IMG/VR virus record: IMGVR_UViG_3300047157_000217
Span: 1 to 40,468 of that record
Length of the DNA: 40,468 nucleotides
Source: a virus
Direction: 5' to 3' (one strand)
The position numbers were made by a program, and so were the translations under genes. Below are positions 5,763 to 24,001 of the stretch, one piece after another. Under the pieces are notes generated by a model, which had not been told where the DNA came from, searched no databases, and saw nothing but the letters and a program-made list of their open reading frames with translations. Positions within the stretch are counted from its first letter, which is position 1; every line of letters starts with the position of its first letter.

Positions 5763-5779
5763 TTTTTTTTAAAAAAATC

Positions 5780-6131: not shown

Positions 6132-6166
6132 TTGACATATCATGCAAAATGAACTTGAATAACGAC
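6132..6166 (+). promoter_or_regulatory. leaderless early promoter
   Basis: TTGACA at 6132, 17 nt, TTGAAT at 6155, 6 nt, ATG at 6167. Confidence 0.65.
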
Positions 6167-7489: not shown

Positions 7490-7506
7490 CGTTTATTGTA
7501 CTGAAT
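7471..7506 (+). promoter_or_regulatory. leaderless early promoter
   Basis: TTGACA at 7471, 17 nt, TATTGT at 7494, 7 nt, ATG at 7507. Confidence 0.7.
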
Positions 7507-7691: not shown

Positions 7692-7722
7692 CATCATCGA
7701 GGGTTGCATAAGACAATCAACA

Positions 7723-7917
7723 ATGAATCCAATAAATAAAGAATATAGCATCTCTCTAGGGGTAACTGATCAAGAAATTTCTGATCTTAAAAAAGGTCAA
7801 CCTGTTAGATTTATTTTTACTGACAAAAATTTTCCTAAGATTAATGTGGCGATAGAACACAAGGAAGATGATTTACCTTTAACCGATTACATGAATTTAA
7901 GTCTTGACAACGTCTAA
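7723..7917 (+). CDS. hypothetical protein
   Basis: 64 residues from MNPINKEYSISLGVTDQEIS. The same frame also has an ATG at 7669 overlapping the previous gene, so the start is unsure. A beta-rich middle (GQPVRFIFTD) is followed by an acidic end; the last codons LDNV contain the next TTGACA. Confidence 0.55.
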   Translation: MNPINKEYSISLGVTDQEISDLKKGQPVRFIFTDKNFPKINVAIEHKEDDLPLTDYMNLSLDNV

Positions 7918-7938
7918 CAACAGGTCTAGTATATTGAC
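7904..7938 (+). promoter_or_regulatory. leaderless early promoter
   Basis: TTGACA at 7904, 17 nt, TAGTAT at 7927, 6 nt, ATG at 7939. Confidence 0.8.
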
Positions 7939-8169
7939 ATGAATTATATAACAGAAGAAATTAAATTTAAAGTTCCACAAAATGGTGGAGATAATTACCG
8001 ATTGTACTCATGCGTAGATCAAGTTGCTGATCTTATTGATATGTATTTTAAGACTGCAATAGAAGATACTACAAACATACATGATTTAATTCAAAAAGAA
8101 ATTAATTCAAGTAAACTTAGAGAAGTAGAGCATAATAGATTAGAGGATATTAATGGTGGATCAAAATAA
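7939..8169 (+). CDS. MNYITEEI-type hypothetical protein
   Basis: 76 residues. The N-terminus MNYITEEIKFKVPQNGGDNY matches the upstream broken gene; the rest differs and is helical. It is immediately upstream of the rIIA promoter region. Function unknown. Confidence 0.7.
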   Translation: MNYITEEIKFKVPQNGGDNYRLYSCVDQVADLIDMYFKTAIEDTTNIHDLIQKEINSSKLREVEHNRLEDINGGSK

Positions 8170-8247
8170 TTGAAAAAAAGTATTGACATTATCAAAAAAC
8201 ATCATTTCATAGTTACAATCATAATTTAATTCAAACACACAAGGAAA

Positions 8248-9983
8248 ATGATAATCACAGAAAATAAATCTAAGAGAGTAGTTCAATCAGTCACGATTTC
8301 GATTCAAGTCAACTGCACGATTGATGCAGAAGATATGCGTTATGTCGCATCTTTACTACGAAACAATTACTCTAACACTCGTCTTGCAGTTGTGCGAGAA
8401 ATTAGCGCCAATGCTCTTGATGCAAACCTTGAAGCAAATTCAAGTCGCAAATTGAAGTCAAGTTGCCTACTAGCATGAATCCAACATTTTCGGTTCGTGA
8501 TTTCGGGGGTGGACTTAGCAAAGAAGATGTATTTGGTCTTTACTCTAAGTATGGTAAGTCAACCAAGAGAACTAGCAACAATTATATTGGTGCTTTTGGT
8601 ATTGGTAAATTTGCGCCACTTTCTTATGGTGACAATTTTACTTGCGTTTCTTATCATGGTGGAATAAAACTTCATACAATATTTTTGTCGATGAAGATGA
8701 TGATACTAAGATCGTTCAGTTGCATGAAGAACCTAGCAATGAACCAACAGGTTTGTGCATTGAAGTTGCAGTTGCAGATGGTGATAAGATGATTTCAGAA
8801 AATCACTAAAAATTTCTTTCAGATTCTTTCCTCGAAGAGATGCCTAAATTTATTGGGGTTGAAGATGACTTTATAAAAATGAAGAAAAAATTCTTGAGAG
8901 TAAAAATGACGAATGGTTTTTTTGCAAGCCACGAGAATTCGGATTACATTATTCAAGATCATGAATGCTCATGTTATTATGGGTAGAGTAGCTTATCCAC
9001 TCGATAGATCTCGATAAATGTCAATACAAAATTTGTCAAAGATGACAAAAGATCAAGTCATTGTCAATAATATTTTGTCGATGGATGGATTTTATCTTCG
9101 CTGTGCCTCTTGGTTCTGTAAAATTGCATCATAGTCGTGAATCACTAGAGTACAACAAAACTACTCAACAAAAAATTGTTGCAAGTCTTCTTCGTTGCAG
9201 TTGAAGAGATTCAAGAAATTGCAAAAGAAAAACTTGCTGATTCAGATGATCTATGGGATGCAAAACGCAATTACGCAAAAATTGTCAATGCTATGCCATA
9301 TAACTTGAGAAATGTTTTTGAGAATTCTTTGAGTGGAAAGGTATCAAAATAGATTCACCCGATTTTCATAGAGATTATCAGTTGGCAAGATGATTTATTC
9401 ATTACTCATTCTTGGAAAGAATCTGATTCTGATTCTCGTAACGGATTCAAGATTCGTTCTCAAAAAGAGAACTAGAGCGTAATTTGTCAAGACAATTATC
9501 TTGTTCATGATTCAAGATTTAGAATCTTCTCATGGTAATAATCTTGAGAGTTCGCACTTTGATGAATCAAGATGAAGACCTAAAAGGTGTTTATATTTAA
9601 ATTGTCAATCTAGTTCTGCACAGAATCAGTGTTGATAATGAATGGAATTCAATTTAAGGTTGATAAAAAGCATATTCGTACACTTCTAATGTTGAGAAAG
9701 AAAAGCCTCAAAGAAGTGGAGTTCGCAAATCAAATGGTAGTCGCGCAAACATTCCTTTGTTCATTTTGAATACTGATCGTGCATGTTTACAAAAATGCCG
9801 ATTATTGGAAAAATGCCTTCTGATGATGTTCAGCTCTGTTGAAGATGATGCTTCTTCGGTTGATGGTAATTGGGATGGTCAACTTATTTATGTTCCAATC
9901 AAGAACTACAAAATAGATGACGAATTCAATAATTTAGAGACTATGAAAACTAGGATTGCTCATATTAATTCGATAAAATAATG
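8248..9983 (+). pseudogene. rIIA: rIIA-like GHKL ATPase gene, multiply frameshifted
   Basis: Read across frames this is one gene of about 575 codons. The N-terminal fragment has NTRLAVVREISANALDA, the N-box of GHKL (Hsp90/MutL-type) ATPases. The next frame has FSVRDFGGGLSKEDVFGLYS and NYIGAFGIGKFAPLSYGDNF, the nucleotide lid and G-boxes, then VPLGSVKLHHSRESLEYNKT further on. These are the landmarks of phage rIIA proteins, which act with rIIB in lysis timing and exclusion responses in T4. A Shine-Dalgarno-like AAGGAAA precedes the ATG. At least six indels fall between 8440 and 9760; the last 74 codons are open and end against the rIIB ATG. Sequencing error is more likely than decay because rIIB is intact. 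Confidence 0.8.
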
Positions 9984-13268: not shown

Positions 13269-13747
13269 TATATAGTTAAGATTGAGAAGGGCATACTCAA
13301 CTAAATAAAATAGCCCAAAATTTTGATCTTTTACATTTTAAACACTTTGGAGAGGGAGATATCCCCCTCCTGTGGGTGACTGAGCAAGCCTGTGATGAGC
13401 GGGCTAAGGTATGCAAATTCCCTGTGGTGGGGTCGGCAGGTCTAATCTGATGAGTCGAATGACTAATACCATGTCTAATTTGTAGTGCAAAGTAGGTACA
13501 CCATGAACTGATGTTCATCCCGAAAAGTCGAGGGTATACAGTAATCCCTTCCCACACCTTTTTCTGTCCAGCAGGGACTTTCCTTTTGTTCCCTGCGAAC
13601 CACCGACCCTCCTCTTGGTTTTTATTATTTTTCTCCAAGGGGAGGGTTATTGGTTTGACTTCATGACATAAATCGATTACTATCTTACTTAAGCAGTTAC
13701 CCTTTGTGTGCTGCAAATTTAACCAATCATAAAAATGAATACAATAT

Positions 13748-13945: not shown

Positions 13946-14046
13946 TAAGTCCTTGACTATCAACGACTTAGGCGGCCCGGCCCTCCTAAATGCCTGATTA
14001 TCAGGTAGTTATAACAAAATGCAACTTAGATGCACTTTTTTCTTGC
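13946..14046 (+). repeat. triple-palindrome repeat, copy 1, with promoter-side extension
   Basis: Left palindrome CCTTGACTATCAACGACTTA, a GGCGGCCCGGCCCTCC core, right palindrome CCTGA-TTA-TCAGG (both arms changed together), then the conserved ATGCAACTTAG..CTTTTTTCTTGC lead into the next promoter. Confidence 0.85.
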
Positions 14047-14077
14047 GCTAACACTCTTTATACGTCATAGTATAGAT
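14043..14077 (+). promoter_or_regulatory. repeat-linked leaderless promoter
   Basis: TTGCGC at 14043, 17 nt, CATAGT at 14066, 6 nt, ATG at 14078. Decides the start against an in-frame ATG at 14030. Confidence 0.75.
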
Positions 14078-14479
14078 ATGATTAAGAGAAACCAACACGA
14101 CCCAAGATACACGATCAAAAAGAATCGCCCCGTCTATGTCTACAAGAATCTCCACAAAGATTGTTGGAGTGTTAAACAACACGGGCTAGTTAAGGCTCAC
14201 ATCCCACAAGATGAAGCTATCGGATTGTGGGACTGCTATTTTCATGTAGATATCAAAGGCAGGCAAAAAGTTCTTCGTGAGAAGCGCAAGAATGTCCATG
14301 CATTTGTTAAAGGTTACCTCCAGGATGCAGAAAATGTCAACACTGACAGATCTGCTACCGAAGTAACATATAACCCATACAAGTATGAAACTTTTGTTGA
14401 CAAAGACACCGAAAAGTTTGTATACTATGCGGACGAAGTTTTATTAACACACAACAAAGTAACAGCATACATACCATGA
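14078..14479 (+). CDS. conserved phage hypothetical protein
   Basis: 133 residues. RNQHDPRYTIKKNRPVYVYK, LHKDCWSVKQHGLVKAHIP and QKVLREKRKNVHAFVKGYL are segments I recall as conserved in a small phage protein family of unknown function. It is the first gene of the first repeat-bounded cassette and overlaps the next gene by 4 nt. Confidence 0.7.
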   Translation: MIKRNQHDPRYTIKKNRPVYVYKNLHKDCWSVKQHGLVKAHIPQDEAIGLWDCYFHVDIKGRQKVLREKRKNVHAFVKGYLQDAENVNTDRSATEVTYNPYKYETFVDKDTEKFVYYADEVLLTHNKVTAYIP

Positions 14480-14724
14480 AATTATTAAGAGATATCATAG
14501 ATCATTGGGGTTTCGTTGACTCCGAGCAACTCAAAGAACTTGCTAAGCATTTTCCACAGATGCCATTAGTTATCAAGTGGGGAATGAGGCAGCGAGAAGT
14601 TTGCATTGCTTGCGACATTGCCCAACGAATTCACGAAGAAGAGCAGTTGGGTGATTGGGCACGTGAAGTTTTCCTTACAGCAAAAAACCTAGGTCAACTT
14701 AAAGAAGTTTTAGGAATAAAATGA
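14476..14724 (+). CDS. hypothetical protein
   Basis: 82 residues, MKLLRDIIDHWGFVDSEQLK, all helical, with a CIACDIAQRIHEEE segment. Coupled to the previous gene by an ATGA overlap. Function unknown. Confidence 0.65.
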   Translation: MKLLRDIIDHWGFVDSEQLKELAKHFPQMPLVIKWGMRQREVCIACDIAQRIHEEEQLGDWAREVFLTAKNLGQLKEVLGIK

Positions 14725-14734
14725 CAAAAAAAGT

Positions 14735-14770
14735 TTGACAACAACCTACAACTAGTCTATATTATATAAC
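14735..14770 (+). promoter_or_regulatory. leaderless early promoter
   Basis: TTGACA at 14735, 17 nt, TATATT at 14758, 7 nt, ATG at 14771. Confidence 0.8.
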
Positions 14771-14974
14771 ATGATAACATTAGAAACACCACAACAAATC
14801 GCAATGTTTAGACTTCTTAGTCTCAAGTCCGCACTCAAGCTAGAGTGCCTTGGAATGAAGAGAAGAGGTCAATCAGCATATGCAATCGTAAAAGCCGAGC
14901 TTGGACTCAAAGGTAACAAGAAGTCCGTACTCGAACAACTAGAACAAATTATCAAGGATGTTAAAAATGACTAA
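14771..14974 (+). CDS. conserved phage hypothetical protein
   Basis: 67 residues. The segment LKLECLGMKRRGQSAYAIVK AELGLKG is the recognisable core of a small helical family common in phage accessory regions. Function unknown. The next gene starts inside its last codons. Confidence 0.65.
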   Translation: MITLETPQQIAMFRLLSLKSALKLECLGMKRRGQSAYAIVKAELGLKGNKKSVLEQLEQIIKDVKND

Positions 14975-15188
14975 AGCACAAATCGAATCACGAGTAGAAG
15001 GTTGGAATTGGAACATGAACATCTTTGAGATATACGATGAACTCAGAGACGGGCATACGGGAGAAGAGCAAGAGCAACTTTTAACTTTTGCTTATAATTA
15101 TTTCAATAAAGATACGATGATCAAAGAGTTAGCAGATCATTTTTGCATAACTATTCACACAGACGAAGACTCACCAATCCCTTGTTAA
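14967..15188 (+). CDS. hypothetical protein
   Basis: 73 residues from MTKAQIESRVEGWNWNMNIF, with a C-terminal LADHFCITIHTDED. ATGACTAA overlap with the previous stop. Function unknown. Confidence 0.6.
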   Translation: MTKAQIESRVEGWNWNMNIFEIYDELRDGHTGEEQEQLLTFAYNYFNKDTMIKELADHFCITIHTDEDSPIPC

Positions 15189-15189
15189 A

Positions 15190-15336
15190 ATGACTAAGAT
15201 AGAAAAAGTAGCACGACAATTAGATGATGAAGCTAGAGAGATGTGGAGTCAAGGTAAGATAAGTGGAGAAGAAGCTCTTGCCGTTATACATTTCATAGAA
15301 AAATTCAAAACACTCTTGACACCAACAACCAAGTAG
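15190..15336 (+). CDS. 48-residue hypothetical protein
   Basis: MTKIEKVARQLDDEAREMWS, helical, one base after the previous stop. Its end carries the next TTGACA. Confidence 0.55.
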   Translation: MTKIEKVARQLDDEAREMWSQGKISGEEALAVIHFIEKFKTLLTPTTK

Positions 15337-15351
15337 TCTATTATTATAATC
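15316..15351 (+). promoter_or_regulatory. leaderless early promoter
   Basis: TTGACA at 15316 inside the preceding gene, 17 nt, TATTAT at 15339, 7 nt, ATG at 15352. Confidence 0.8.
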
Positions 15352-15591
15352 ATGAACAATTATATAGAAGCTCTCTGCGTAGGCAAGCCCATGGATTTGC
15401 CTACCTACAATGAAGAAACCGAGCAATGGGAAGTTTACTTCGAGGAAAACAACGACAACTACCACCCATACTTTGGTAGAGATATCATTTCTTATGGTTG
15501 TGATAGCGCGGACGAAGCTTGCGCTATTTACAATCATTACAACATAAACCCAATCGAGGAGATAAATGAAGATGAAAAAGTTACTAGTTAA
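15352..15591 (+). CDS. hypothetical protein
   Basis: 79 residues, MNNYIEALCVGKPMDLPTYN, with alternating strands then CDSADEACAIYNHYN. Overlaps the next gene. Function unknown. Confidence 0.65.
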   Translation: MNNYIEALCVGKPMDLPTYNEETEQWEVYFEENNDNYHPYFGRDIISYGCDSADEACAIYNHYNINPIEEINEDEKVTS

Positions 15592-15805
15592 AATTGCTAG
15601 ACTGTTTAACCCTGTATACAGCTTGGTCTACACCACCAAGAACGGCAATACTGCCATGTATACTATATCAAAACCACGACATTCTAACGAATTCGGCAAC
15701 AGCAGACAAGGACTGCAAGTGGCGGGCTTTAGAGCACATTGCTACAACCGTGATGCTGTTCGTTCATTCCGCTACGATAGAATCGTTAGCTTAGTAAAAG
15801 GATAA
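15572..15805 (+). CDS. mini WYL-like phage protein
   Basis: 77 residues. After a basic N-terminus it has YTTKNGNTAMYTISKPRHSN, EFGN, and GFRAHCYNRDAVRSFRYDRI VSL. The F(R)A.C..R..VRSFR.DRI pattern is that of the C-terminal half of WYL domains, and free-standing copies like this are common in phages. It may bind a ligand or nucleic acid, which is inference. Starts at 15566 or 15572. Confidence 0.55.
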   Translation: MKKLLVKIARLFNPVYSLVYTTKNGNTAMYTISKPRHSNEFGNSRQGLQVAGFRAHCYNRDAVRSFRYDRIVSLVKG

Positions 15806-15810
15806 AAATT

Positions 15811-15963
15811 ATGGCAACATTACAAGAAGAGCTTCGGAGCCTAGGGTACAAATTAGCATGCAAGGAGATCTACGGAGAGAATACTCCGGCCTACTATGCA
15901 TTAAAACGGGAGCATAATTACTTGCTCCAAAAACTTTACCGCCTACAAAAGCTTCATAGCTAA
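15811..15963 (+). CDS. 50-residue helical protein
   Basis: MATLQEELRSLGYKLACKEI, then a helix ending LLQKLYRLQKLHS, like a small leucine-zipper peptide. A GGATAAAAATT leader separates it from the previous gene. Last gene of its unit, before the terminator. Confidence 0.6.
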   Translation: MATLQEELRSLGYKLACKEIYGENTPAYYALKREHNYLLQKLYRLQKLHS

Positions 15964-15983
15964 ATAAGGCGGACCCAAATAAG

Positions 15984-16018
15984 GCCCTCCCTTGCTGACG
16001 GGGAGGGTCTTTTTTTTA
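15984..16018 (+). terminator. Rho-independent terminator
   Basis: CCCTCCC, TTGCTGAC, GGGGAGGGTC, then eight T. The same stem and loop recur at 17506. Confidence 0.9.
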
Positions 16019-16032
16019 GCCCAATGTTTTCG

Positions 16033-16129
16033 TAACTCATTGCATATCAACGACTTAGGCAGGCCGGCCCGCGCAAGTCGTTGATTATCAACAACTTACA
16101 ACAAAATGCATTTAAACGTCATTTTTTTC
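16033..16129 (+). repeat. triple-palindrome repeat, copy 2, with promoter-side extension
   Basis: Degenerate left palindrome (CATTGCATATCAACGACTTA), core AGGCAGGCCGGCCCGC, perfect right AAGTCGTTGATTATCAACAA, then the conserved AAAATGCA lead into TTTTTTTCTTGTGC. Confidence 0.85.
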
Positions 16130-16164
16130 TTGTGCTTTTGTCAAAACTGCGTTACTATTCTTAT
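16130..16164 (+). promoter_or_regulatory. repeat-linked leaderless promoter
   Basis: TTGTGC at 16130, 17 nt, TACTAT at 16153, 6 nt, ATG at 16165. Confidence 0.75.
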
Positions 16165-16284
16165 ATGAAAACGAGGGAAATCAAGATAAGAAAAACGATC
16201 CTTTTCACTAAGGCTCGCCCTTTTAAACTCAAGAATAAAATCTTAGACAGAAAACTCAAACACAAAAAAAGATATGAATATTAA
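16165..16284 (+). CDS. 39-residue very basic peptide
   Basis: MKTREIKIRKTILFTKARPF and a Lys-rich tail ending KKRYEY. Possibly nucleic-acid binding by charge alone. The start is fixed by the promoter, not the upstream ATG at 16081. Overlaps the next gene. Confidence 0.55.
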   Translation: MKTREIKIRKTILFTKARPFKLKNKILDRKLKHKKRYEY

Positions 16285-16504
16285 TTCCGACTACTCAGAA
16301 GACCAATCAATCAATGCAGAAGAAGCTATGGAAATGAGCATGGGCTGGATTTTCGATAACCTCATTAAGCCAAACGAAGCTGACATGGATGAAGAATCAT
16401 TATTGATGTTAGCCATTATTGGCTCAACCTTCAAGGAAATGGCATCTCGCGCGAATGCTTGGGATGCGCTTCAGCAAAACAGAGATGATTTTTCTCGCAA
16501 TTAA
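16274..16504 (+). CDS. hypothetical acidic protein
   Basis: 76 residues, MNINSDYSEDQSINAEEAME, acidic helical, Met-rich. Coupled to the basic peptide before it. Function unknown. Confidence 0.65.
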   Translation: MNINSDYSEDQSINAEEAMEMSMGWIFDNLIKPNEADMDEESLLMLAIIGSTFKEMASRANAWDALQQNRDDFSRN

Positions 16505-16507
16505 ACC

Positions 16508-16542
16508 TTGACTAAACCTTAAATTACTATATTATTATAACT
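16508..16542 (+). promoter_or_regulatory. leaderless early promoter
   Basis: TTGACT at 16508, 16 nt, TATTAT at 16530, 7 nt, ATG at 16543. Confidence 0.7.
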
Positions 16543-17475
16543 ATGAATCAATCAGAAAATACCACTAACTCTCCTCGCAAATCTGTTAACCTCAGCATTT
16601 GTGGAGGCAATCGCACTCTCGTAGACTTTGATCAAGTAGTTGGAGTACCAACTCCACCTGTCGAGTTTCGCAAGAAAGAAAATGCTAATGGCGAGCGTGC
16701 CGTTTCTTATCAACCTATATCTCATCATGAGGTAGTTAATCGCACCAAAAATTTCTTAGGTGAGCAGGGCTTCACTATTCAAGATGAGGTTCATTCGCTT
16801 GCAAGAGCAAACCAACATTACTTTGGCTTGTTCGCAGTCGATCATCCAAATCGTGCTGAATCTGATCGTGGTTGTGTTGTAGGAATTCGCAACTCTCACG
16901 ACAAGACTTTCCCTGCAGGACTTTGCGCAGGTGATGCACCATTTGTTTGCGATAACCTTATTTTCACTAACACGATCAAGTTGGCACGTCGCCACACTCG
17001 CAACATCCTTAACGATCTTGATTTTATGATCAATCGTGCATTGGGTAAATTGTTCGGATTTTGGCATGGTCAAGATCAGCGCATTGATGCCTACAAGCAA
17101 ATTGAGCTTACCAATGCTCAAGTCAATGACATTGTCATTCGTGCTTGCAAGGCAGGCGCTTTACCTAAGTCCAAGATCATTGACGTGGTCAATCAATGGG
17201 AATCTTCTGATCATCCCGAATTTTGGGATCGCAATGTTAACTCTCTTTACAATGCTTTCACCGAAGTGTATAAGGGCAATCTAGTTGCCTTGCCCTCTCG
17301 CTCTGATGCCCTCCACTCTGTTTTAGATGGAGAGGTCAACTTTAATATGGATGAGTTGATGATTGAGAATGCTGAGTTAGTTGAAGTGGCAGAAGTTGCC
17401 ACATCTGAGAATGTCCTTGGTAATGTCGATGGTGAAGTACCTGCCGACATTTACGAGGAAGTCGAGCCTTTCTAA
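16543..17475 (+). CDS. DUF932 family protein
   Basis: 310 residues. The middle third has HYFGLFAVDHP, VVGIRNSHDKTFPAGLCAGD, FVCDNLIF and RRHTRNILNDLD, the signature order of the DUF932 (phage/plasmid-like) family; the C-terminus is acidic. Members are widespread on phages and plasmids and their function is not established. It has its own promoter, and a terminator plus repeat follow directly. Confidence 0.82.
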   Translation: MNQSENTTNSPRKSVNLSICGGNRTLVDFDQVVGVPTPPVEFRKKENANGERAVSYQPISHHEVVNRTKNFLGEQGFTIQDEVHSLARANQHYFGLFAVDHPNRAESDRGCVVGIRNSHDKTFPAGLCAGDAPFVCDNLIFTNTIKLARRHTRNILNDLDFMINRALGKLFGFWHGQDQRIDAYKQIELTNAQVNDIVIRACKAGALPKSKIIDVVNQWESSDHPEFWDRNVNSLYNAFTEVYKGNLVALPSRSDALHSVLDGEVNFNMDELMIENAELVEVAEVATSENVLGNVDGEVPADIYEEVEPF

Positions 17476-17505
17476 TAGAAAAGGCTTGACGCCAAATAAG
17501 ACCCT

Positions 17506-17533
17506 CCCTTGCTGACAGGGAGGGTTTTTTTAT
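17506..17533 (+). terminator. Rho-independent terminator
   Basis: ACCCTCCC, TTGCTGAC, AGGGAGGGT, then seven T. A near copy of the terminator at 15984, including the loop. Confidence 0.9.
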
Positions 17534-17548
17534 GCCATGATTATTTCA

Positions 17549-17640
17549 TAAGTCGTTGATATTCAACGACTTAGGCGGGCCGGCCCGCCTAAATGCCTGA
17601 GCACCAATGACTTACATAGTAAAAAAACTAAAAAAAAGTC
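17549..17640 (+). repeat. triple-palindrome repeat, copy 3
   Basis: Perfect left palindrome AAGTCGTTGA/TCAACGACTT, perfect core GGCGGGCCGGCCCGCC, decayed right element, then an A-rich lead to TTGCAA without the ATGCAATTTAG block. Confidence 0.85.
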
Positions 17641-17675
17641 TTGCAATACCCACATAAATGTGCGACTATTATAAT
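17641..17675 (+). promoter_or_regulatory. repeat-linked leaderless promoter
   Basis: TTGCAA at 17641, 17 nt, GACTAT at 17664, 6 nt, ATG at 17676. Confidence 0.7.
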
Positions 17676-17855
17676 ATGATAACTATAAGCAGAAACCCTA
17701 ACTTTAACGAATGGTTCGATATTAGACTTTTAGGCAAAGTCGTAGATAATGCTAAAACCCGTGCCCGCGCAAATTTTTTAGCCAATGAGCTTAAAAAAGA
17801 AATCAAGGAATCAAAAGGCGATGTCTTATCGATATTAAACAAAGGTCGGGACTAA
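17676..17855 (+). CDS. MITI-NPNF family small protein, copy 1
   Basis: 59 residues: MITISRNPNFNEWFDIRLLG, then K/R-rich helices (ARANFLANELKKEIK). It is paralogous to 22836-23009 and looks like a small beta-hairpin plus helix fold. It is alone between repeats 3 and 4. Function unknown. Confidence 0.7.
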   Translation: MITISRNPNFNEWFDIRLLGKVVDNAKTRARANFLANELKKEIKESKGDVLSILNKGRD

Positions 17856-17920
17856 ACTACTGACCATCAACGACTTAGGAGGCCTGGCCCGCCTAAGCCC
17901 TTGACTACCAAGGACTTAGG
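17854..17920. repeat. triple-palindrome repeat, copy 4, between converging genes
   Basis: Begins at the stop codon of the plus gene and ends 14 nt before the end of the minus gene. Core GGAGGCCTGGCCCGCC; right palindrome CCTTG-ACTAC-CAAGG with both arms changed. Confidence 0.8.
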
Positions 17921-17933
17921 GGCTTTTGAGAGA

Positions 17934-18245
17934 TTAAGACCTCTCTAAGCTCAACTGATTAAGAGACTGAAAGCAGAAAGCATTTCTGGCAGGAGTATCC
18001 TCGCCATACTCTTCGGCATAGTCAACCCAAGATACGGCAGTCTTTCCGTGATCTTTTTCGCACTCAGCTTTTGCGACTGATTTAACCGCGTCAGCAACTT
18101 GCTTTGATCCGAGAATATCGTGACCTTCAGCTAGAGTGAGAATGACTTGACCAACATATCTGTTGAGGTCTTCGACGCTATACGCGGCTTTACCGATTTT
18201 CATTCTGACTGCTGATTCGAGTAGTTCTTGTGGTAGTAGTGACAT
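17934..18245 (-). CDS. hypothetical protein with a normal leader
   Basis: 103 residues from MSLLPQELLESAVRMKIGKA. The promoter (TTGACA, 17 nt, TACTAT) lies at 18283-18311, and a leader of about 37 nt carries AAAGGA before the ATG. It has a helical N-terminus and a C-terminal AVSWVDYAEEYGED. Function unknown. Confidence 0.7.
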   Translation of the reverse strand: MSLLPQELLESAVRMKIGKAAYSVEDLNRYVGQVILTLAEGHDILGSKQVADAVKSVAKAECEKDHGKTAVSWVDYAEEYGEDTPARNAFCFQSLNQLSLERS

Positions 18246-18346
18246 AATTTTCCTTTCGTTAGTGTTATTGTTTATAATATATATAGTATAGGATGAGGGG
18301 GCAGATGTCAATATTTATTTAAATTTTTTTTTATTTTTTTGTGCCG

Positions 18347-18443
18347 TAAGTATCTGCTAACCAACAACTTAGGCGGGCCGGCCCGCCTAAATGCTTGACA
18401 ATCAACAACTTACAACAAAATGCAATTTAGCTCAACTTTTTTC
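18347..18443 (+). repeat. triple-palindrome repeat, copy 5, with promoter-side extension
   Basis: Decayed left element, perfect core GGCGGGCCGGCCCGCC, right TTGACAATCAACAACTTA, then the full conserved AAAATGCAATTTAG..CTTTTTTCTTGC lead. Confidence 0.85.
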
Positions 18444-18478
18444 TTGCCTTAGTTAGCCGGTTAGTTTACTATGTATAT
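18444..18478 (+). promoter_or_regulatory. repeat-linked leaderless promoter
   Basis: TTGCCT at 18444, 17 nt, TACTAT at 18467, 6 nt, ATG at 18479. Confidence 0.8.
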
Positions 18479-18679
18479 ATGAAAAGAATAGTACAGATAC
18501 TTATGGAGCGTGACGGGCTTTCCCGTGAAGACGCTATTCACCAAACCGCAACTTTTTTCCGTGAGATGTCCGAAGATATCGCAACAGGCGGAGATCCCTT
18601 CGAGTGGGAACACGCCTTCACTAGTGAGTTTTCCTTAGAACCGGATTTTTTCGAAGATTTGATTTTTGCGCTTGCATAA
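18479..18679 (+). CDS. hypothetical protein
   Basis: 66 residues: MKRIVQILMERDGLSREDAI, then FFREMSEDIATGGDPFEWEH, LEPDFFEDLIF. This resembles a recurrent small phage family (RDGLSREEA...GGDPFEIEEIL..E.GLEPDYIFDL). Function unknown. Overlaps the next -35. Confidence 0.65.
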   Translation: MKRIVQILMERDGLSREDAIHQTATFFREMSEDIATGGDPFEWEHAFTSEFSLEPDFFEDLIFALA

Positions 18680-18706
18680 ACCAAACAATTCAACTATTAT
18701 TCTATT
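18672..18706 (+). promoter_or_regulatory. leaderless early promoter
   Basis: TTGCAT at 18672, 17 nt, TATTAT at 18695, 6 nt, ATG at 18707. Confidence 0.7.
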
Positions 18707-19441
18707 ATGATTAAACAAACATTACTCACTTCAGGAAATGCCAAGATCACTAAGGGCGAGGCATTTGGATACTTAACTAAAGGCATACATTTAGCTCCCG
18801 CCAATTTGTCAGGCTATGAGGTTTGCCAATGGCGCTCCAAAGGTTGCACAATGGCTTGTTTGAATACGGCAGGTCGTGGGCAAATGAATTCTGTTCAAGA
18901 TTCGCGCATTGCAAAGACAAAGCTATTCTTTGAGGAAAGGTTTGACTTTCTTGGAAAACTATCAAAAGAAATTACTTCTACAATTAAGTCAGCAAGTAAA
19001 AAGAGCTTGCAAGCAGTCTTTCGACCTAACCTTACAAGCGATATTGCATGGGAAGATATTGTCAATGAAGATGGCGTGACTATTTTCGAGAAGCACGGCA
19101 AAACTCAATTTTATGATTATACCAAGTCATTCAAGAGAATGTGCAACTTTCTTGGCAAGCCCTTTATTAAAGGAGAAAAATTTCCTTCCAATTATCACTT
19201 AACTTTTTCTTGCTCAGAGCATAATGAAGAAAAATGTAAAATGGTTCTTGCAATGGGTGGCAATGTTGCGGTTGTCTTTCGTAACCAATTACCTGAAACT
19301 TGGCACGGATATAAAGTTGTCAATGGCGACGAATCGGACTTGCGATTCCTTGACAATCAAGGTGTTGTCGTGGGGCTTATCGAAAAGGGTCTTGCGAAAA
19401 AAGATTTGACAGGATTCGTTAAAGAAGGTATAAATTCATAA
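18707..19441 (+). CDS. GP88 / DUF7227-like conserved phage protein
   Basis: 244 residues. TSGNAKITKGEAFGYLTKGI, HLAPANLSGYEVCQW, GCTMACLNTAGRG, QFYDYTKSFKRM, NYHLTFSCSEHNE, GNVAVVFR and VVNGDESDLRFLDNQGVVVG are the landmarks of a well-conserved phage/plasmid family, with Cys residues at about 41, 48 and 52 that could bind metal. Function is not established. It overlaps the next gene by a base and is typically found with it. Confidence 0.78.
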   Translation: MIKQTLLTSGNAKITKGEAFGYLTKGIHLAPANLSGYEVCQWRSKGCTMACLNTAGRGQMNSVQDSRIAKTKLFFEERFDFLGKLSKEITSTIKSASKKSLQAVFRPNLTSDIAWEDIVNEDGVTIFEKHGKTQFYDYTKSFKRMCNFLGKPFIKGEKFPSNYHLTFSCSEHNEEKCKMVLAMGGNVAVVFRNQLPETWHGYKVVNGDESDLRFLDNQGVVVGLIEKGLAKKDLTGFVKEGINS

Positions 19442-19611
19442 TGGACTATTACGATTCAGCCGAAGATTTAACTATAACGAGAGATCGAGCATTGCAAGAA
19501 TTAGCAAGGCACGGGATCACTTCAAACGAAGACATCATAGAGTTCTTCGCTGATGTGGGCGAGCATGAAGAATATGATGCACAAAAAGTCTTGATTTGGT
19601 TAGGCTACTAA
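19441..19611 (+). CDS. 56-residue conserved phage protein
   Basis: MDYYDSAEDLTITRDRALQE, then ELARHGI, EFFADVGEHEEYDAQKVLIW LGY. The ITRxRALxEL..HG..(E)FF..LG....YDA..VL.WLGY pattern is a recurrent family beside GP88-like genes. Its stop is part of repeat copy 6. Confidence 0.7.
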   Translation: MDYYDSAEDLTITRDRALQELARHGITSNEDIIEFFADVGEHEEYDAQKVLIWLGY

Positions 19612-19704
19612 GTCGTTGATATCCAACGAGTTAGGCGGGCCGGCCCGCCTAAGTACTTGGCAGTCAAGGGCTTACAACAAAATGCGATTTAGGTGCATTT
19701 TTTT
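19609..19704 (+). repeat. triple-palindrome repeat, copy 6, with promoter-side extension
   Basis: Starts on the stop codon. Near-perfect left palindrome, perfect core GGCGGGCCGGCCCGCC, decayed right element, then AAAATGCGATTTAG..TTTTTTTCTTGTC. Confidence 0.85.
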
Positions 19705-19740
19705 CTTGTCACAATGCCCTTGTTCTGTCATTATATACTT
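19705..19740 (+). promoter_or_regulatory. repeat-linked leaderless promoter
   Basis: TTGTCA near 19706, 17 nt, CATTAT, 6 nt, ATG at 19741. Rejects the in-frame ATG at 19693. Confidence 0.75.
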
Positions 19741-20052
19741 ATGATTAAAACAATTACAGAGTGGGATTTTATCAATTCTTTTGACCAAGTCAACAGAGCA
19801 ACCAACTTCTCAGTAGCAGGTAGAAAAGCTCTATTCGAGATGCTTGAGGAGGTTAACCCCGATATGGAACTTGACCCTATCGCCATCTGCTGTGACTTCA
19901 CAGAGTACGAAAGTCTCGAAGAGTGGAAGCAAGATTATGAGTACGTAGCAGAAGATGAAGACGAAGAGGACGATTATGCTCTTGACTATTTAAGAGATCA
20001 GACAATGGTCTTAGAACTAGCAAATGGAGGAATCGTTATACAATCATACTAA
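19741..20052 (+). CDS. conserved phage hypothetical protein
   Basis: 103 residues. FSVAGRKALFEMLEEVNPDM, ELDPIAICCDFTEYESLEEW, an acidic linker and MVLELANGGIVIQSY match a family very common in phages (ALFxYLEE..ELDVIAxCCDYxEY...NGGxLIQ.F). Function unknown. First of five coupled genes in this unit. Confidence 0.75.
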   Translation: MIKTITEWDFINSFDQVNRATNFSVAGRKALFEMLEEVNPDMELDPIAICCDFTEYESLEEWKQDYEYVAEDEDEEDDYALDYLRDQTMVLELANGGIVIQSY

Positions 20053-20054
20053 TT

Positions 20055-20225
20055 ATGGAAACAATAGACATCACACCAACTTGGGAGGCTTGTGTTAAGA
20101 TATACATGGCAGTCCTTGAAAATGAAAGCGCATCCTTCACAGGAAAAAGAGAAGCGAGGGCAGAACTCGTTCGACTTGCAAAGATTGTAGATGCACAAAA
20201 CGAGGAGGCAAAGAAAAATGGATAA
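20055..20225 (+). CDS. 56-residue conserved phage protein (ITPTW type)
   Basis: METIDITPTWEACVKIYMAV, then helix with REARAELVRLAKIVDAQ. The IDITPTW..A...Y...LE plus A..EL.RMA..AD pattern is a recurrent phage family next to the gene at 20404. Overlaps the next gene. Confidence 0.68.
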   Translation: METIDITPTWEACVKIYMAVLENESASFTGKREARAELVRLAKIVDAQNEEAKKNG

Positions 20226-20391
20226 CTTAACTGAACAAGAATTAAAAGCAGTTTTTGATGTGGTTAATGTTTACGAACCTGAAGACATAAGCCATATATA
20301 TCCCGAAATGGCAACCAACGAATTCATGGAAGATATTAAATCTGCATGGAGGAAGATCTTAAAAAGTCTTGACAATACAGAACAAAACTGA
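20218..20391 (+). CDS. 57-residue hypothetical protein
   Basis: MDNLTEQELKAVFDVVNVYE, starting by ATGGATAA overlap with the previous stop. Helical, ending RKILKSLDNTEQN, the last codons holding the next TTGACA. Confidence 0.6.
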   Translation: MDNLTEQELKAVFDVVNVYEPEDISHIYPEMATNEFMEDIKSAWRKILKSLDNTEQN

Positions 20392-20403
20392 GAGAATACT
20401 ATT
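20369..20403 (+). promoter_or_regulatory. leaderless early promoter
   Basis: TTGACA at 20369, 17 nt, GAGAAT at 20392, 6 nt, ATG at 20404. Confidence 0.6.
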
Positions 20404-20736
20404 ATGCACGAAAAAGTAGAACAATCCGTAAATTCCTACACCGAGTTCGAGAAACTAGCATGGGGGTCAGACAAACCCATTCCTGCCGTAGGATCAGAAG
20501 TTAACGTCAAGATCAATGGTATTGGTCGCTCAACTATCCTCAAGTATTTCGTTGAGTATGGTTTCATTGGGTTGCTAGTTCAGCCACAAAATCCACCCAC
20601 TTGGTATATAAAGCAAAATGGTGCTGATGAGCCTTGCCATGTTTACCCTGCCGAATGTCTTGAGTTTGAAGTTCGAAAGGATAACGGAAGTGTAGACAAA
20701 GGGTTTTACGAATCTATGCACAATTCAATGGCATGA
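20404..20736 (+). CDS. SH3-like conserved phage protein
   Basis: 110 residues. IPAVGSEVNVKINGIGRSTI, KYFVEYGFIGLLVQPQNPP and TWYIKQNG form a beta-barrel-like core seen in a recurrent phage family next to ITPTW-type genes. Function unknown. Overlaps the next gene. Confidence 0.68.
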   Translation: MHEKVEQSVNSYTEFEKLAWGSDKPIPAVGSEVNVKINGIGRSTILKYFVEYGFIGLLVQPQNPPTWYIKQNGADEPCHVYPAECLEFEVRKDNGSVDKGFYESMHNSMA

Positions 20737-20942
20737 GTTGGATACTTACCACAATCGGGCGAGATAGTAAAGTCGCCATCTTAGAATGTGACGAGTCGGA
20801 GCAACCACATAAAGGCGAGCATAAGATAAGTTTTGATACACTTCTTCAAAATGTAAAATCGGGCTTATTCGTAGACATGACAAATAAGACTAGCTATGCA
20901 GGGGGCAGAATCTTTGTTTTAAAAGAAGACCTAAGTCATTGA
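20733..20942 (+). CDS. hypothetical protein whose end lies in a repeat
   Basis: 69 residues, MSWILTTIGRDSKVAILECD. The last codons (DLSH and the TGA) are formed by the left arm of repeat copy 7, so the repeat has been accommodated inside the coding end. Function unknown. Confidence 0.6.
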   Translation: MSWILTTIGRDSKVAILECDESEQPHKGEHKISFDTLLQNVKSGLFVDMTNKTSYAGGRIFVLKEDLSH

Positions 20943-21027
20943 CTATCAACGACTTAGGCGGGCCGGGCCTCCCAAGTGCTTGACTATTAACGACTTACGA
21001 CAAAATGCAATTTAGTTAAACTTTTTT
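20932..21027 (+). repeat. triple-palindrome repeat, copy 7, with promoter-side extension
   Basis: Left CATTGACTATCAACGACTTA, core GGCGGGCCGGGCCTCC, right CTTGACTATTAACGACTTA, then AAAATGCAATTTAG..CTTTTTTCTTGC. Confidence 0.85.
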
Positions 21028-21063
21028 CTTGCAATTATTAGGTTACTAGGTTATTGTGTTTAT
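21028..21063 (+). promoter_or_regulatory. repeat-linked leaderless promoter
   Basis: TTGCAA near 21029, 17 nt, TATTGT, 6 nt, ATG at 21064. Confidence 0.8.
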
Positions 21064-21423
21064 ATGATAGCAAAACAGCAATTACTTAACTTCGATAATC
21101 TCGCTTTCCATACTCATCCTTCTTGCCCGAAGGCAGTTATGGCTCAATTAAACATGGGCGGTACAACTATTTCAGTTGTAGCAAACACTCTTGACGGGCA
21201 TGGTCTTTATGGTCATGTTGACGATAACGAGTACGAAGTTGCAATGTGGAAAGAAGGAGATACAGACATGATTCCTCTCGGTATTGGCGATGATGTTCTC
21301 GCAGGTCAATCTCCTGCCCAAATTAGCAAGCACATGAGAGATGCCCAACTTGACGGAGATGCTTGGGTTGATCTTCTTAGGAAGTTAAGAAAAGATTTTC
21401 GTGACGAATTAGACCTTGACTAA
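21064..21423 (+). CDS. hypothetical protein
   Basis: 119 residues, MIAKQQLLNFDNLAFHTHPS, with a strand-rich centre (GGTTISVVANTL, EYEVAMWKEG) and an acidic helical end. It resembles small conserved phage proteins that begin L.FD.L.F..HP, function unknown. Its last codons LDLD and stop carry the next TTGACT. Confidence 0.65.
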   Translation: MIAKQQLLNFDNLAFHTHPSCPKAVMAQLNMGGTTISVVANTLDGHGLYGHVDDNEYEVAMWKEGDTDMIPLGIGDDVLAGQSPAQISKHMRDAQLDGDAWVDLLRKLRKDFRDELDLD

Positions 21424-21450
21424 TTATAACAACTAAACTATATTACTATT
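21416..21450 (+). promoter_or_regulatory. leaderless early promoter
   Basis: TTGACT at 21416 inside the preceding gene, 17 nt, TATATT at 21439, 6 nt, ATG at 21451. Confidence 0.8.
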
Positions 21451-21708
21451 ATGACAGAAGAACAAAGAATCGCAGTTATCGCTAAAGCAGTAGCAAACTC
21501 ACAAACAATCGCGCCATCTCAGTCAGTTGAGGATTTCATCGCTGAGGTAAAAACAGAGCAAGTGTTTACCGAACACGGGCTTCTCAATACTCAGCGCGAA
21601 GATGTAGAAGATGAATCTCAATTCCTCTTTACCGATTCAGCCGAAGAGGTTGACGAAGAAGATGAGGATATTGGAATCTCAGATCAGATGAAAGGGGTTT
21701 ACTCATGA
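21451..21708 (+). CDS. acidic hypothetical protein
   Basis: 85 residues, MTEEQRIAVIAKAVANSQTI, with a very acidic C-terminal half (EEVDEEDEDIG). It overlaps the membrane peptide that follows. Function unknown. Confidence 0.6.
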   Translation: MTEEQRIAVIAKAVANSQTIAPSQSVEDFIAEVKTEQVFTEHGLLNTQREDVEDESQFLFTDSAEEVDEEDEDIGISDQMKGVYS

Positions 21709-21800
21709 TTTTAGAATTATATCTTTGTATTTCCTGGGCAGTAGTTTTTTACATAATGCATAGAGACATATTTGGCGATGAGCCAAATATTGATAAATAA
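21705..21800 (+). CDS. 31-residue membrane peptide
   Basis: MILELYLCISWAVVFYIMHR and a short acidic tail. A single hydrophobic helix, starting by ATGA overlap. Function unknown. Confidence 0.5.
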   Translation: MILELYLCISWAVVFYIMHRDIFGDEPNIDK

Positions 21801-21837
21801 GACCATTACCCCAACCCCCCGCCTCAAAGGCTTGCCG

Positions 21838-21921
21838 TAAGTCGTTGAATATCAACGACTTAGGCAGGCCGGGCCTCCTAAGCTCTTGAATATCAACAAC
21901 TTACAACAAAGTAAAAAAGAC
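21838..21921 (+). repeat. triple-palindrome repeat, copy 8
   Basis: Perfect left palindrome, core GGCAGGCCGGGCCTCC, right TCTTGAATATCAACAACTTA, then a short lead to a TTGACA promoter without the ATGCAATTTAG block. Confidence 0.85.
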
Positions 21922-21955
21922 TTGACATAGGAGGCGATCAGCGCTACATTAAGGT
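21922..21955 (+). promoter_or_regulatory. repeat-linked leaderless promoter
   Basis: TTGACA at 21922, 17 nt, TACATT at 21945, 5 nt, ATG at 21956. Confidence 0.8.
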
Positions 21956-22288
21956 ATGAATAAAATTAACATAGACGACATAGACAAAAGCGAAGATCTT
22001 TTCTTCGTTTCAATCGATAATGCCGAGATCTCTGAGATGATCCTAACCTGCTCATTCTGGAGAGACGAAGTTGAAGAATTGTATGGCGATCAAGTTTCGG
22101 CAATTAATGTGGTTGGATATTTCGACCAAATCGAGAGTATTGAAGCATTTGGTAAAAATGGATTTCCAATCAACCCACCTGAAGATTTACTCGAAGAGGC
22201 TAAGGCTCAGCTCGAGGGTATTGAGCTTGACATCGAACGAAACGAGTGTGAGGTTGACTATTCTCCGAGATACTACGACCTAGTTTAG
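21956..22288 (+). CDS. acidic hypothetical protein
   Basis: 110 residues, MNKINIDDIDKSEDLFFVSI, acidic alpha/beta. Alone in its unit, bounded by repeats 8 and 9 and converging with the next minus-strand gene. Function unknown. Confidence 0.65.
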   Translation: MNKINIDDIDKSEDLFFVSIDNAEISEMILTCSFWRDEVEELYGDQVSAINVVGYFDQIESIEAFGKNGFPINPPEDLLEEAKAQLEGIELDIERNECEVDYSPRYYDLV

Positions 22289-22297
22289 GAAAGCCCA

Positions 22298-22364
22298 TAA
22301 GTCGTTGAATATCAACGACTTATGCGGGCCGGCCCGCCTAAGTGCCTGACTATTAAAGACTTAT
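22298..22364. repeat. triple-palindrome repeat, copy 9, between converging genes
   Basis: Perfect left palindrome, core TGCGGGCCGGCCCGCC, right CCTGACTATTAAAGACTTA. The minus gene ends 1-2 nt beyond it. Confidence 0.85.
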
Positions 22365-22365
22365 G

Positions 22366-22605
22366 TTAGAAGTCGTACTGGTCATGGTAGCCATAGTCAT
22401 AGTCCTGGTATCGGTCGAAGCTAGGCTCTTCATGGTTGCGGTGTACTTCTGGCATTTCGGCAGCCTCGTCGCTATTCCTGACATCAGCGAGTATTTTGTC
22501 AAGACGAGCAAGACGGGCAAGCTCTTTCTCTTGAGCTTCAAACTCGACATCAGTGATGCCGTTGGCATGGGCGAGGCGGGCGAGTGAATCATTTTCGTTT
22601 TCCAT
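22366..22605 (-). CDS. hypothetical charged protein
   Basis: 79 residues from MENENDSLARLAHANGITDV, a charged helical coil followed by a Tyr/Asp-rich tail (DRYQDYDYGYHDQYDF). Its promoter puts the ATG at 22605. Function unknown. Confidence 0.6.
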   Translation of the reverse strand: MENENDSLARLAHANGITDVEFEAQEKELARLARLDKILADVRNSDEAAEMPEVHRNHEEPSFDRYQDYDYGYHDQYDF

Positions 22606-22640
22606 ATATATAACATAAGGGTATTGCGGGCCTATGTCAA
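22606..22640 (-). promoter_or_regulatory. leaderless early promoter
   Basis: On the minus strand TTGACA, 17 nt, TATGTT, 6 nt, ATG at 22605. Confidence 0.75.
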
Positions 22641-22709
22641 CACATTTTAGAGATAAATGTAAGTTAGCCAAATAAAGGGCCCGCCGGACCCGCGCTGCGC
22701 GCTGTAGCC

Positions 22710-22775
22710 TAAGTCGTTGAATATCAACGACTTGGGCGGGCCGGGCCTCCTAAGCCCTTGACTGTCAACAGCTTA
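22710..22775 (+). repeat. triple-palindrome repeat, copy 10
   Basis: Perfect left palindrome, core GGCGGGCCGGGCCTCC, right CCTTGACTGTCAACAGCTTA; an A-rich lead to a TTGACT promoter, as in copy 3. Confidence 0.85.
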
Positions 22776-22800
22776 CGGCACAAAAAACTTTACTTTTTAT

Positions 22801-22835
22801 TTGACTTTCTCAGAAAAAGATCTTATATTCTTAGT
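22801..22835 (+). promoter_or_regulatory. repeat-linked leaderless promoter
   Basis: TTGACT at 22801, 17 nt, TATATT at 22824, 6 nt, ATG at 22836. Confidence 0.8.
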
Positions 22836-23009
22836 ATGATAACAATTAAACAAAATCCTAATTTCAGTAAATTCTTTCAAGTCTTCGCTTTTGGCGAGTT
22901 CATTGATGAGCTTGATCGGAAGAGTAAAGCAATTCGCCTGGCTACACGCCTAGCTAAGGCTAATAAGAAAGAGCACATTAATGTAGAGGGTGAGATGCAA
23001 AGCATCTAG
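22836..23009 (+). CDS. MITI-NPNF family small protein, copy 2
   Basis: 57 residues: MITIKQNPNFSKFFQVFAFG, then basic helices (KAIRLATRLAKANKKEH). Paralogue of 17676-17855, with the same position as a single gene between two repeats. An upstream in-frame ATG at 22758 lies before the promoter and is rejected. Confidence 0.7.
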   Translation: MITIKQNPNFSKFFQVFAFGEFIDELDRKSKAIRLATRLAKANKKEHINVEGEMQSI

Positions 23010-23011
23010 CA

Positions 23012-23077
23012 TAAGTCATTGATAACCAACGGGTTAGGAGGGCCGGCCTCCCTAAACCCTTGACAGTCAACGACTTA
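23012..23077. repeat. triple-palindrome repeat, copy 11, between converging genes
   Basis: Decayed left element, core GGAGGGCCGGCCTCCC, right CCTTGACAGTCAACGACTTA. Starts 3 nt after the plus gene and ends 6 nt before the minus gene. Confidence 0.8.
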
Positions 23078-23082
23078 TGGGA

Positions 23083-23232
23083 TTAAGCCTTGAATAGCCC
23101 GTATCGGTGCGATCCGTTACCCTCAGCCTGTCGCCTACGATAAAGGCGCTCGGCGTCACGCTTGCGCATGGCGATGCTTTCAACTACCCAAACGGCGCCC
23201 GCTTGGTTGAGAATGGATTTTAGTATATACAT
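23083..23232 (-). CDS. 49-residue basic protein
   Basis: MYILKSILNQAGAVWVVESI, then a strongly basic helix (MRKRDAERLYRRRQAEG) and YGLFKA. Third gene of a minus-strand unit that begins at 23676. Function unknown. Confidence 0.55.
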   Translation of the reverse strand: MYILKSILNQAGAVWVVESIAMRKRDAERLYRRRQAEGNGSHRYGLFKA

Positions 23233-23240
23233 AAGTTGTT

Positions 23241-23417
23241 TTATAGTGAAGAGATTAGGGAATCAAGCTTACGCTCTAATCGGGAAAGCCGATCATGCTC
23301 CCATTGTAACTGAATGTCCACATATCCCGCACCCATCTTGCAGGTGCCGCGCAGAGCGTTCCAGTCTGCGATGCGTTCGTGCGATCTACGGATTTTTTCT
23401 TGTATTTCTTTTATCAT
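23241..23417 (-). CDS. 58-residue coiled-coil protein
   Basis: MIKEIQEKIRRSHERIADWN, CKMGAGYVDIQLQWEH and a C-terminal leucine-rich helix (RLSRLERKLDSLISSL). Starts one base after the stop of the gene upstream, so translation is probably coupled. Confidence 0.6.
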   Translation of the reverse strand: MIKEIQEKIRRSHERIADWNALRGTCKMGAGYVDIQLQWEHDRLSRLERKLDSLISSL

Positions 23418-23418
23418 A

Positions 23419-23676
23419 TTAGTATAGGTATTGATCGGTTGAGTCTACGAAAGAGTGAACAAGCTCGACATCCAAGATGTCCCAAAACTTAAAAACCATA
23501 TCAGCATGGGACTTGAGAAAGGCATGATCTAGCTCCTGATCTAGGTCAGCAGAGAAGCGCAAGCCTTGGGTCTTGACTATACTAGGATCGTCTTGAAACC
23601 TTGCAGTGACTCTTATTTGTACATTTTGAAACTCGACTCTGCGAGTTGGAACATTTCTATTTGATTGATTTAACAT
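23419..23676 (-). CDS. hypothetical protein
   Basis: 85 residues from MLNQSNRNVPTRRVEFQNVQ, with a beta strand, a helical centre and an acidic end. Its promoter fixes the ATG at 23676, 108 nt inside the longest open frame. First gene of a three-gene unit. Confidence 0.65.
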   Translation of the reverse strand: MLNQSNRNVPTRRVEFQNVQIRVTARFQDDPSIVKTQGLRFSADLDQELDHAFLKSHADMVFKFWDILDVELVHSFVDSTDQYLY

Positions 23677-23711
23677 AAGTATAAAGTAAGCTATTTTTGA
23701 GGTAATTGCAA
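23677..23711 (-). promoter_or_regulatory. leaderless early promoter
   Basis: Minus strand CTTTTTTTTCTTGCAA, 17 nt, TACTTT, 6 nt, ATG at 23676. Same T-rich lead as the repeat-linked promoters but without the repeat. Confidence 0.75.
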
Positions 23712-23723
23712 GAAAAAAAAGAT

Positions 23724-23870
23724 TTAATTTACTGCTTGCTTGATCATCTCGAAAGTCCAAACATGACCTCCTGGGCATTCCCAAAGGTCAAAAGCCTCGG
23801 ACATTGGGCTTGCTTGGATGCGCTCAAGACCATTGTCTTGAATGAATTGTTTTATTTTCTTATCTAACAT
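23724..23870 (-). CDS. 48-residue hypothetical protein
   Basis: MLDKKIKQFIQDNGLERIQA, then WECPGGHVWTFEMIKQAVN. A clear open frame from a leaderless start, ending just before the next promoter. Confidence 0.6.
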   Translation of the reverse strand: MLDKKIKQFIQDNGLERIQASPMSEAFDLWECPGGHVWTFEMIKQAVN

Positions 23871-23905
23871 ACTAACAATATCGCACATAAAAGAGCTAAT
23901 TGCAA
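23871..23905 (-). promoter_or_regulatory. repeat-linked leaderless promoter
   Basis: Minus strand TTGCAA, 17 nt, GATATT, 6 nt, ATG at 23870; repeat copy 12 lies just upstream on that strand. Confidence 0.75.
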
Positions 23906-23935
23906 ACTTTTTTTTACTTTTTTTTCATTTTGTCA

Positions 23936-24001
23936 TAAGTCCTTGATTATCAAGTACTTAGGCCGGCCGGCCCGCCTAAGTGCCTGACTGTCAGCGACTT
24001 A
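23936..24001 (-). repeat. triple-palindrome repeat, copy 12
   Basis: AAGTCCTTGATTATCAAGTA (CTTGA/TCAAG, both arms changed), core GGCCGGCCGGCCCGCC, and CCTGACTGTCAGCGACTTA. Last copy in the window; it serves minus-strand genes on both sides. Confidence 0.85.

Follow-up and report, generated by a model that had tools for sequence, protein, structure and literature searches.

The viral record IMGVR_UViG_3300047157_000217 (G000) carries, between positions 13946 and 24001, 12 copies of a 66-bp repeat that punctuate an array of accessory genes. We propose that this element joins mobile gene cassettes and is bound by protein, a reading to which we give slightly better than an even chance and which is the one best supported by comparing the copies with those of related phages. 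As an earlier note on this DNA had suggested in offering a recombination site for cassette exchange among its explanations, the sister-phage comparison revealed cassettes reordered and inverted with their breaks at the elements, and on average the breaks fall at the element's core.

The window analyzed here is the entire record, 40,468 bases. The earlier note, made from the sequence alone, had counted 12 copies of 66 bp at 13.9–24.0 kb, and our search confirmed this: the GC core pattern, allowing ≤3 mismatches, matched 12 times against 0.02 expected from shuffles and had no match in the window outside 13.9–24.0 kb. Because the window is the whole record, the lack of copies outside the array is uninformative about the rest of the phage. 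The copies are:

13946–14011, plus strand: element copy 1, 3′ of a manA RNA and an intrinsic terminator and 5′ of the promoter of gene 14078
16033–16098, polarity ambiguous (strong right box): element copy 2, tandem +/+
17549–17614, plus strand: element copy 3, tandem +/+, preceded by a terminator
17853–17918, plus strand: element copy 4, convergent; the first TAA of the element ends gene 17676–17855
18347–18412, plus strand: element copy 5, divergent units on either side
19609–19674, plus strand: element copy 6, tandem; the first TAA of the element ends gene 19441–19611
20932–20997, plus strand: element copy 7, tandem; the TGA of its left box (20940–20942) terminates open reading frame (ORF) 20733–20942
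21838–21903, plus strand: element copy 8, tandem
22298–22363, plus strand: element copy 9, convergent
22710–22775, plus strand: element copy 10, divergent units on either side
23012–23077, plus strand: element copy 11, convergent
23936–24001, plus strand: element copy 12, the last, minus-strand genes on either side

All copies separate transcription units, and every inter-element interval holds a single unit read in one direction. Copies 5 and 10 stand between divergent units, copy 12 between minus-strand genes and copies 4, 9 and 11 between converging genes, so the earlier statement that each copy lies at the end of a unit is better replaced by one that places the copies between units. Two terminator stem-loops that are 93% identical (15975–16014 and 17492–17531) precede copies 2 and 3, and a manA RNA (RF01745) lies at 13351–13560, shortly 5′ of the first element.

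The window consensus, TAAGTCGTTGATTATCAACGACTTA-GGCGGGCCGGCCCGCC-TAAGTGCTTGACTATCAACGACTTA, matches its own reverse complement at 60 of 70 positions. Across the family, the conserved anatomy consists of two 25-bp dyad boxes, TAAGTCGTTGA-NNN-TCAACGACTTA, flanking a core that is mostly GC-rich, as exemplified by copy 3:

17549–17573, plus strand: left 25-bp dyad box, TAAGTCGTTGA-TAT-TCAACGACTTA, found with the box profile
17574–17589, no strand: GC-rich core of 16 bp, genome-specific in sequence and length, the putative exchange point
17590–17614, plus strand: right 25-bp box, inner half-site weak

The weak inner half-site of the right box makes the element polar. Core length is 16 bp in the window and mostly 15–33 bp across other genomes, each of which has one or two prevailing lengths (16, 17, 21–22, 23, 25, 27, 28 or 33) with some copies a few bases off, and core sequence varies from genome to genome. 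The triple palindrome described earlier fits the window and locus L010, where the middle palindrome is strong (symmetry 0.81 and 0.79), but it is not the conserved family architecture, as symmetry is about 0.3–0.75 in the remaining loci.

Seven sister phages differ in the order of their units and, through block-wise gain and loss, in which units they carry; some units are also inverted. Cassette gene family F38 lies between the F4 and F5 cassettes in the window and between F31 and F25–F3 in L009 (92% amino acid identity); F29 is on the plus strand in the window and on the minus strand in L009 and L010, and F21/F45 is on the plus strand in L010 and on the minus strand in L013. Adjacency in the sister phages is preserved at 285/358 (80%) of junctions without an element versus 93/300 (31%) of those with one. 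Across 36 loci, the corresponding counts are 702/995 and 616/1341, and relative orientation is flipped at 56/995 junctions without an element versus 206/1341 with one. The cassette genes of the window that matter here are:

14078–14479, plus strand: L5 gp82-family gene (PF25735)
16543–17475, plus strand: gene with a DUF932 match, in the F3–F4 cassette, which is intact in 7/7 sister phages
17934–18245, minus strand: F38, a moved cassette relative to L009
18707–19441, plus strand: GP88-family gene (PF17338), anchoring the F5–F17 cassette
21956–22288, plus strand: F29, inverted relative to L009 (75% at the amino acid level) and L010 (53%)

We located the breaks within the element by measuring similarity above permutation in 489 pairs of orthologous cassette ends whose partners differ. 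On the near side, similarity fell from flank (z 7.4) to box (z 4.3) to core (z 0.6), and on the far side it was −0.6 for the core, −1.5 for the box and 2.6 for the flank. The seven-genome version of this map gave, from near flank to far flank, z of 6.9, 2.3, 2.6, 0.9, 0.1 and 0.0. On average, the near box moves with its cassette and the core and far box do not, and identity with a moved unit ends at the core. Cores from one genome resemble each other more than cores from different genomes do (for core lengths 17, 25 and 28, z 15.4, 10.0 and 11.0), whereas the corresponding effect for boxes is weak (z 0.9, 5.7 and 1.9). In L014–L017, another box type (B) surrounds a similar GC core, and L014–L016 contain hybrid elements that join a type B box, a core and a type A box. 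Type B boxes also adjoin type A elements 5′ of promoters in L010 (near 14988) and L011, as if cassettes of the other lineage had been acquired.

Several observations weigh against the joint reading. In the best documented move, that of F38, the left element is conserved throughout, with much of its far box, which means that the core is not the end point of every exchange. Similarity in the far flank is somewhat elevated (z 2.6), the genomes with 25-bp cores show some homogenization of boxes (z 5.7), and a Mantel test of left versus right element halves gave no consistent linkage pattern, for which reason we do not claim free reassortment of the halves. The pair counts are non-independent, because the loci share ancestry and recur among the pairs, and neither a box-binding protein nor a recombinase was found. 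The elements also coincide with the borders of transcription units, where variation in gene order is expected anyway; restricting the comparison to junctions with gaps of at least 20 bp (adjacency preserved at 134/181 without an element and 41/134 with one) weakens this objection without removing it.

A family search, using a profile of the copies and then a profile of the 25-bp box (which at the threshold applied matches shuffled DNA about 0.004 times per kb), yielded 238 distinct elements in 44 loci, nearly all on IMG/VR contigs from phages that have no closely related isolate; the L101 locus is on a 5.7-kb contig of a Rhodobacteraceae metagenome-assembled genome. In the long records examined, elements are restricted to a single array near phoH: boxes lie at 15.6–29.4 kb in the L011 record, at 75–87 kb in the L038 record and at 25–33 kb in the L096 record, which has one lone box at 73 kb. 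The L009 record (137.7 kb, pieces L129–L135) has 30 boxes, or 15 elements, at 93.2–106.2 kb and two lone boxes elsewhere, one of which is included in the 31 boxes detected in the array piece. The array is patchy, as some relatives (e.g., L057 and L071) lack elements in the 10 kb searched on the upstream side of phoH. Searches of isolate phages returned no megablast match to the array, merely short chance matches to the consensus and only phoH matches below 60% identity, and an exact search of viral contigs with the core pattern was empty because the core is genome-specific. Relatives such as pelagiphage matches, together with the manA RNA, indicate that this phage group is probably marine. Our search of openly accessible papers, which is hence weak evidence of novelty, found no earlier description of the element.

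How might such a joint work? The boxes would be occupied by a putative dimeric DNA-binding protein of phage or host origin, and units would be exchanged by recombination at the core. As our searches turned up no dedicated recombinase from the common families, exchange would most likely proceed by general phage recombination. The bound protein may additionally insulate adjacent units from each other, and autonomous promoters at the ATG would let a swapped unit work in either orientation. In 11 records, which may be incomplete, we found no tyrosine recombinase (PF00589; control detected in 14 genomes), no serine recombinase or IS110 transposase (controls detected) and no Y1 transposase of the REP-associated tyrosine transposase (RAYT) type (control detected in 5 genomes; REP, repetitive extragenic palindromic). 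A RecA-like protein occurs in 4 of the 11. Elements are set between tandem units in 189 cases, convergent units in 26 and divergent units in 7 (n = 222 with both flanks called), and no element of the family lies inside a gene. The earlier note had named intragenic repeats in relatives, or a match to an insertion sequence (IS) or miniature inverted-repeat transposable element (MITE) with its transposase, as grounds for abandoning its interpretation; we observed no intragenic element and no enzyme of the four superfamilies searched. We set aside transposable-element (IS/MITE) and integron readings for lack of the enzymes in the 11 records, in a search that did not cover DDE families.

We weighed whether the element acts instead as RNA, either as a bidirectional intrinsic terminator or as a promoter early stem-loop (PeSL)-type cassette working through hairpins. 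As RNA, the copies fold readily (z between −1.8 and −6.2), and a promoter stands at a fixed distance on one side; the mean folding z of the core, however, is −0.45, and compensatory change in the window's triple hairpin is no higher than in shuffles (81.0% vs 80.1%). Only 7 of 189 tandem elements are followed by a T-rich run, leaving 182 with none, and a separate upstream terminator is present in 59/189, which speaks against the bidirectional transcription end proposed earlier if it is taken as an intrinsic terminator; a protein-dependent transcription stop at the element is possible. The half-sites of each dyad are no closer within an element than between elements (z 1.3 each, within genomes). 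GU mismatches do not significantly exceed AC mismatches overall (276 vs 237, p 0.09), and in tandem contexts they exceed them in the upstream arm (165 vs 99) and fall below them in the downstream arm (111 vs 138), a mirror pattern as expected from DNA symmetry rather than a single RNA strand. Scored with each genome left out of training, polarity is uniform in the window (10/10), L009 (13/14), L010 (13/14), L050 (8/8) and L059 (7/7) and not in L011, L012, L013, L038 and others, and the majority orientation is equally common with plus-strand units (52/65) and minus-strand units (64/78). The lack of half-site covariation, the mirror-symmetric mismatches and the independence of polarity from transcription make a DNA element bound by protein more likely than an RNA hairpin, which we consider very improbable; they also fit the protein-binding part of the earlier suggestion, with the protein itself putative.

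If protein does bind the boxes, it could serve as an insulator or road-block between units, like a two-sided stoperator, with shuffling a by-product of many similar sequences. This is a credible alternative, although we judge it unlikely. In its favor, elements separate every unit of the window and occur in all gene orientations, the first TAA of the element is the stop codon in 21 of 241 gene ends, and the spacing from element to ATG is nearly constant (about 62–68 bp in many cases). The array also holds homologs of L5 gp82 and gp88, and stoperators are dispersed in L5-type phages (PMC6550527, PMC9283540). Polarity that ignores transcription, unlike that of stoperators, counts against it, and the homogenization of cores but mostly not of boxes, as well as the tracking of moved cassettes by their near boxes, would need extra explanation. 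We hold it distinctly unlikely that the element is a dedicated, integron-like recombination site at which an unrecognized recombinase attaches to the boxes and carries out crossover in the core. Many arrays do have uniformly oriented polar sites, cores are alike within a genome as if exchange needed identity, and hybrid sites are joined via the core. Yet no tyrosine, serine, IS110 or Y1 enzyme appeared in the 11, possibly incomplete, records, and to our knowledge the overlap regions of tyrosine and serine recombinases are shorter than these 16–33-bp cores. A fuller version, a phage-borne integron-like system in which a putative recombinase would swap self-promoted units in either orientation between polar double-dyad sites and keep the cores of a lineage alike, making the core a compatibility tag, is tentative and quite unlikely.

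Several promoters lie at a fixed distance past an element, with the −10 box 6 nt 5′ of the ATG. The module after copy 5 is an example, and its spacing is repeated after copies 1, 6 and 7:

18413–18478, plus strand: promoter module with CAACAAAATGCAATTTAG, TTTTTTCTTGCC (−35) and TACTAT (−10), 6 nt upstream of the start codon at 18479 (ATG)

Promoters of this sigma70-like kind are widespread, the gap from the end of the −10 box to the start codon being 6 or 7 nt in 102 of 397 called genes from 10 loci and other spacings nearly absent. In the window, 26 start sites have a −10 box at a gap of 4–9 nt, versus 3.25 in shuffles (e.g., 756, 4547, 14771, 16543, 18479, 21064 and 22836); the gene caller preferred starts 4–9 nt past a −10 box, which biases this range but not the 6–7-nt peak. 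Such spacing suggests systematic leaderless mRNAs. Elsewhere in the window, a tRNA-Cys (5685–5762) is overlapped by a called ORF (5261–5908), and 5909–9980 contains short broken ORFs ahead of a rIIB-like gene, possibly reflecting assembly frameshifts or decayed genes. The protein encoded at 31152–32201 adjoins a sigma-like gene and is present beside the array in 22 of 36 compared loci; we do not propose it as the box binder, as Pfam assigns it no DNA-binding domain.

Mosaicism is a known trait of phage accessory regions, but the joints can seldom be seen; here they are explicit, recur many times and can be compared throughout an uncultured phage group. They offer three handles, namely a box that travels with the cassette, a core homogenized in each genome and hybrid joints of box types, which make phage gene swapping, and the limits to swaps between lineages, directly testable. 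If the element is indeed a joint, breaks at the core would provide a visible mechanism for phage gene shuffling.

The element can be compared with several known systems. Like REP sequences and bacterial interspersed mosaic elements (BIMEs), to which the earlier note had likened it, it is an intergenic palindromic repeat, but the likeness does not extend to architecture or to the Y1 (RAYT) transposase, found in 0/11 possibly incomplete records. In integrons, the cassettes of attC arrays are set apart by polar sites that resemble one another, conserved at the ends and variable in between; here, no integrase was found in the 11 possibly incomplete records, and the cassettes bring promoters of their own and occur in both orientations. 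L5-type phages have 20–30 dispersed stoperators, repressor sites of 13 bp that often lie in short gaps between genes and are asymmetric and oriented with transcription (PMC6550527, PMC9283540). The element shares their dispersal, and its array the gp82 and gp88 homologs, but its boxes are dyads whose polarity is independent of transcription. The intergenic repeats of halovirus HF2 (PMC8707807) are likewise promoter-linked; those repeats contain promoters, whereas the promoter lies outside the element. In cluster K mycobacteriophages, extended start-associated sequences (ESASs) are 17-bp imperfect inverted repeats, mostly with 4–13-bp spacers, associated with the start-associated sequence (SAS) motif GGGATAGGAGCCC (PMC3203893), which is absent from the window. 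ESASs and the element both form many imperfect inverted-repeat copies around a variable spacer, in a non-structural region and with a lineage-specific consensus. The element differs in its 25-bp dyads and its cores of mostly 15–33 bp, and whereas ESASs are tied to the same gene families at their starts, it marks both ends of units and its cassette partners change. A T4-type Gp23 (PF07068) was detected in 0/11 records, in a search whose controls were not detected either. PeSLs, according to PMC4503421, are intergenic promoter-linked repeats said to mediate gene shuffling between related T4-like phages. The resemblance drawn in the earlier note extends to intergenic position, promoter linkage and modular shuffling, for which the evidence here is evolutionary, but not to a stem-loop terminator with a T-run (T-rich in 7/189, covariation absent); instead, the element pairs two dyad boxes with a genome-specific GC core, also lies between converging units and borders whole units that are inverted.

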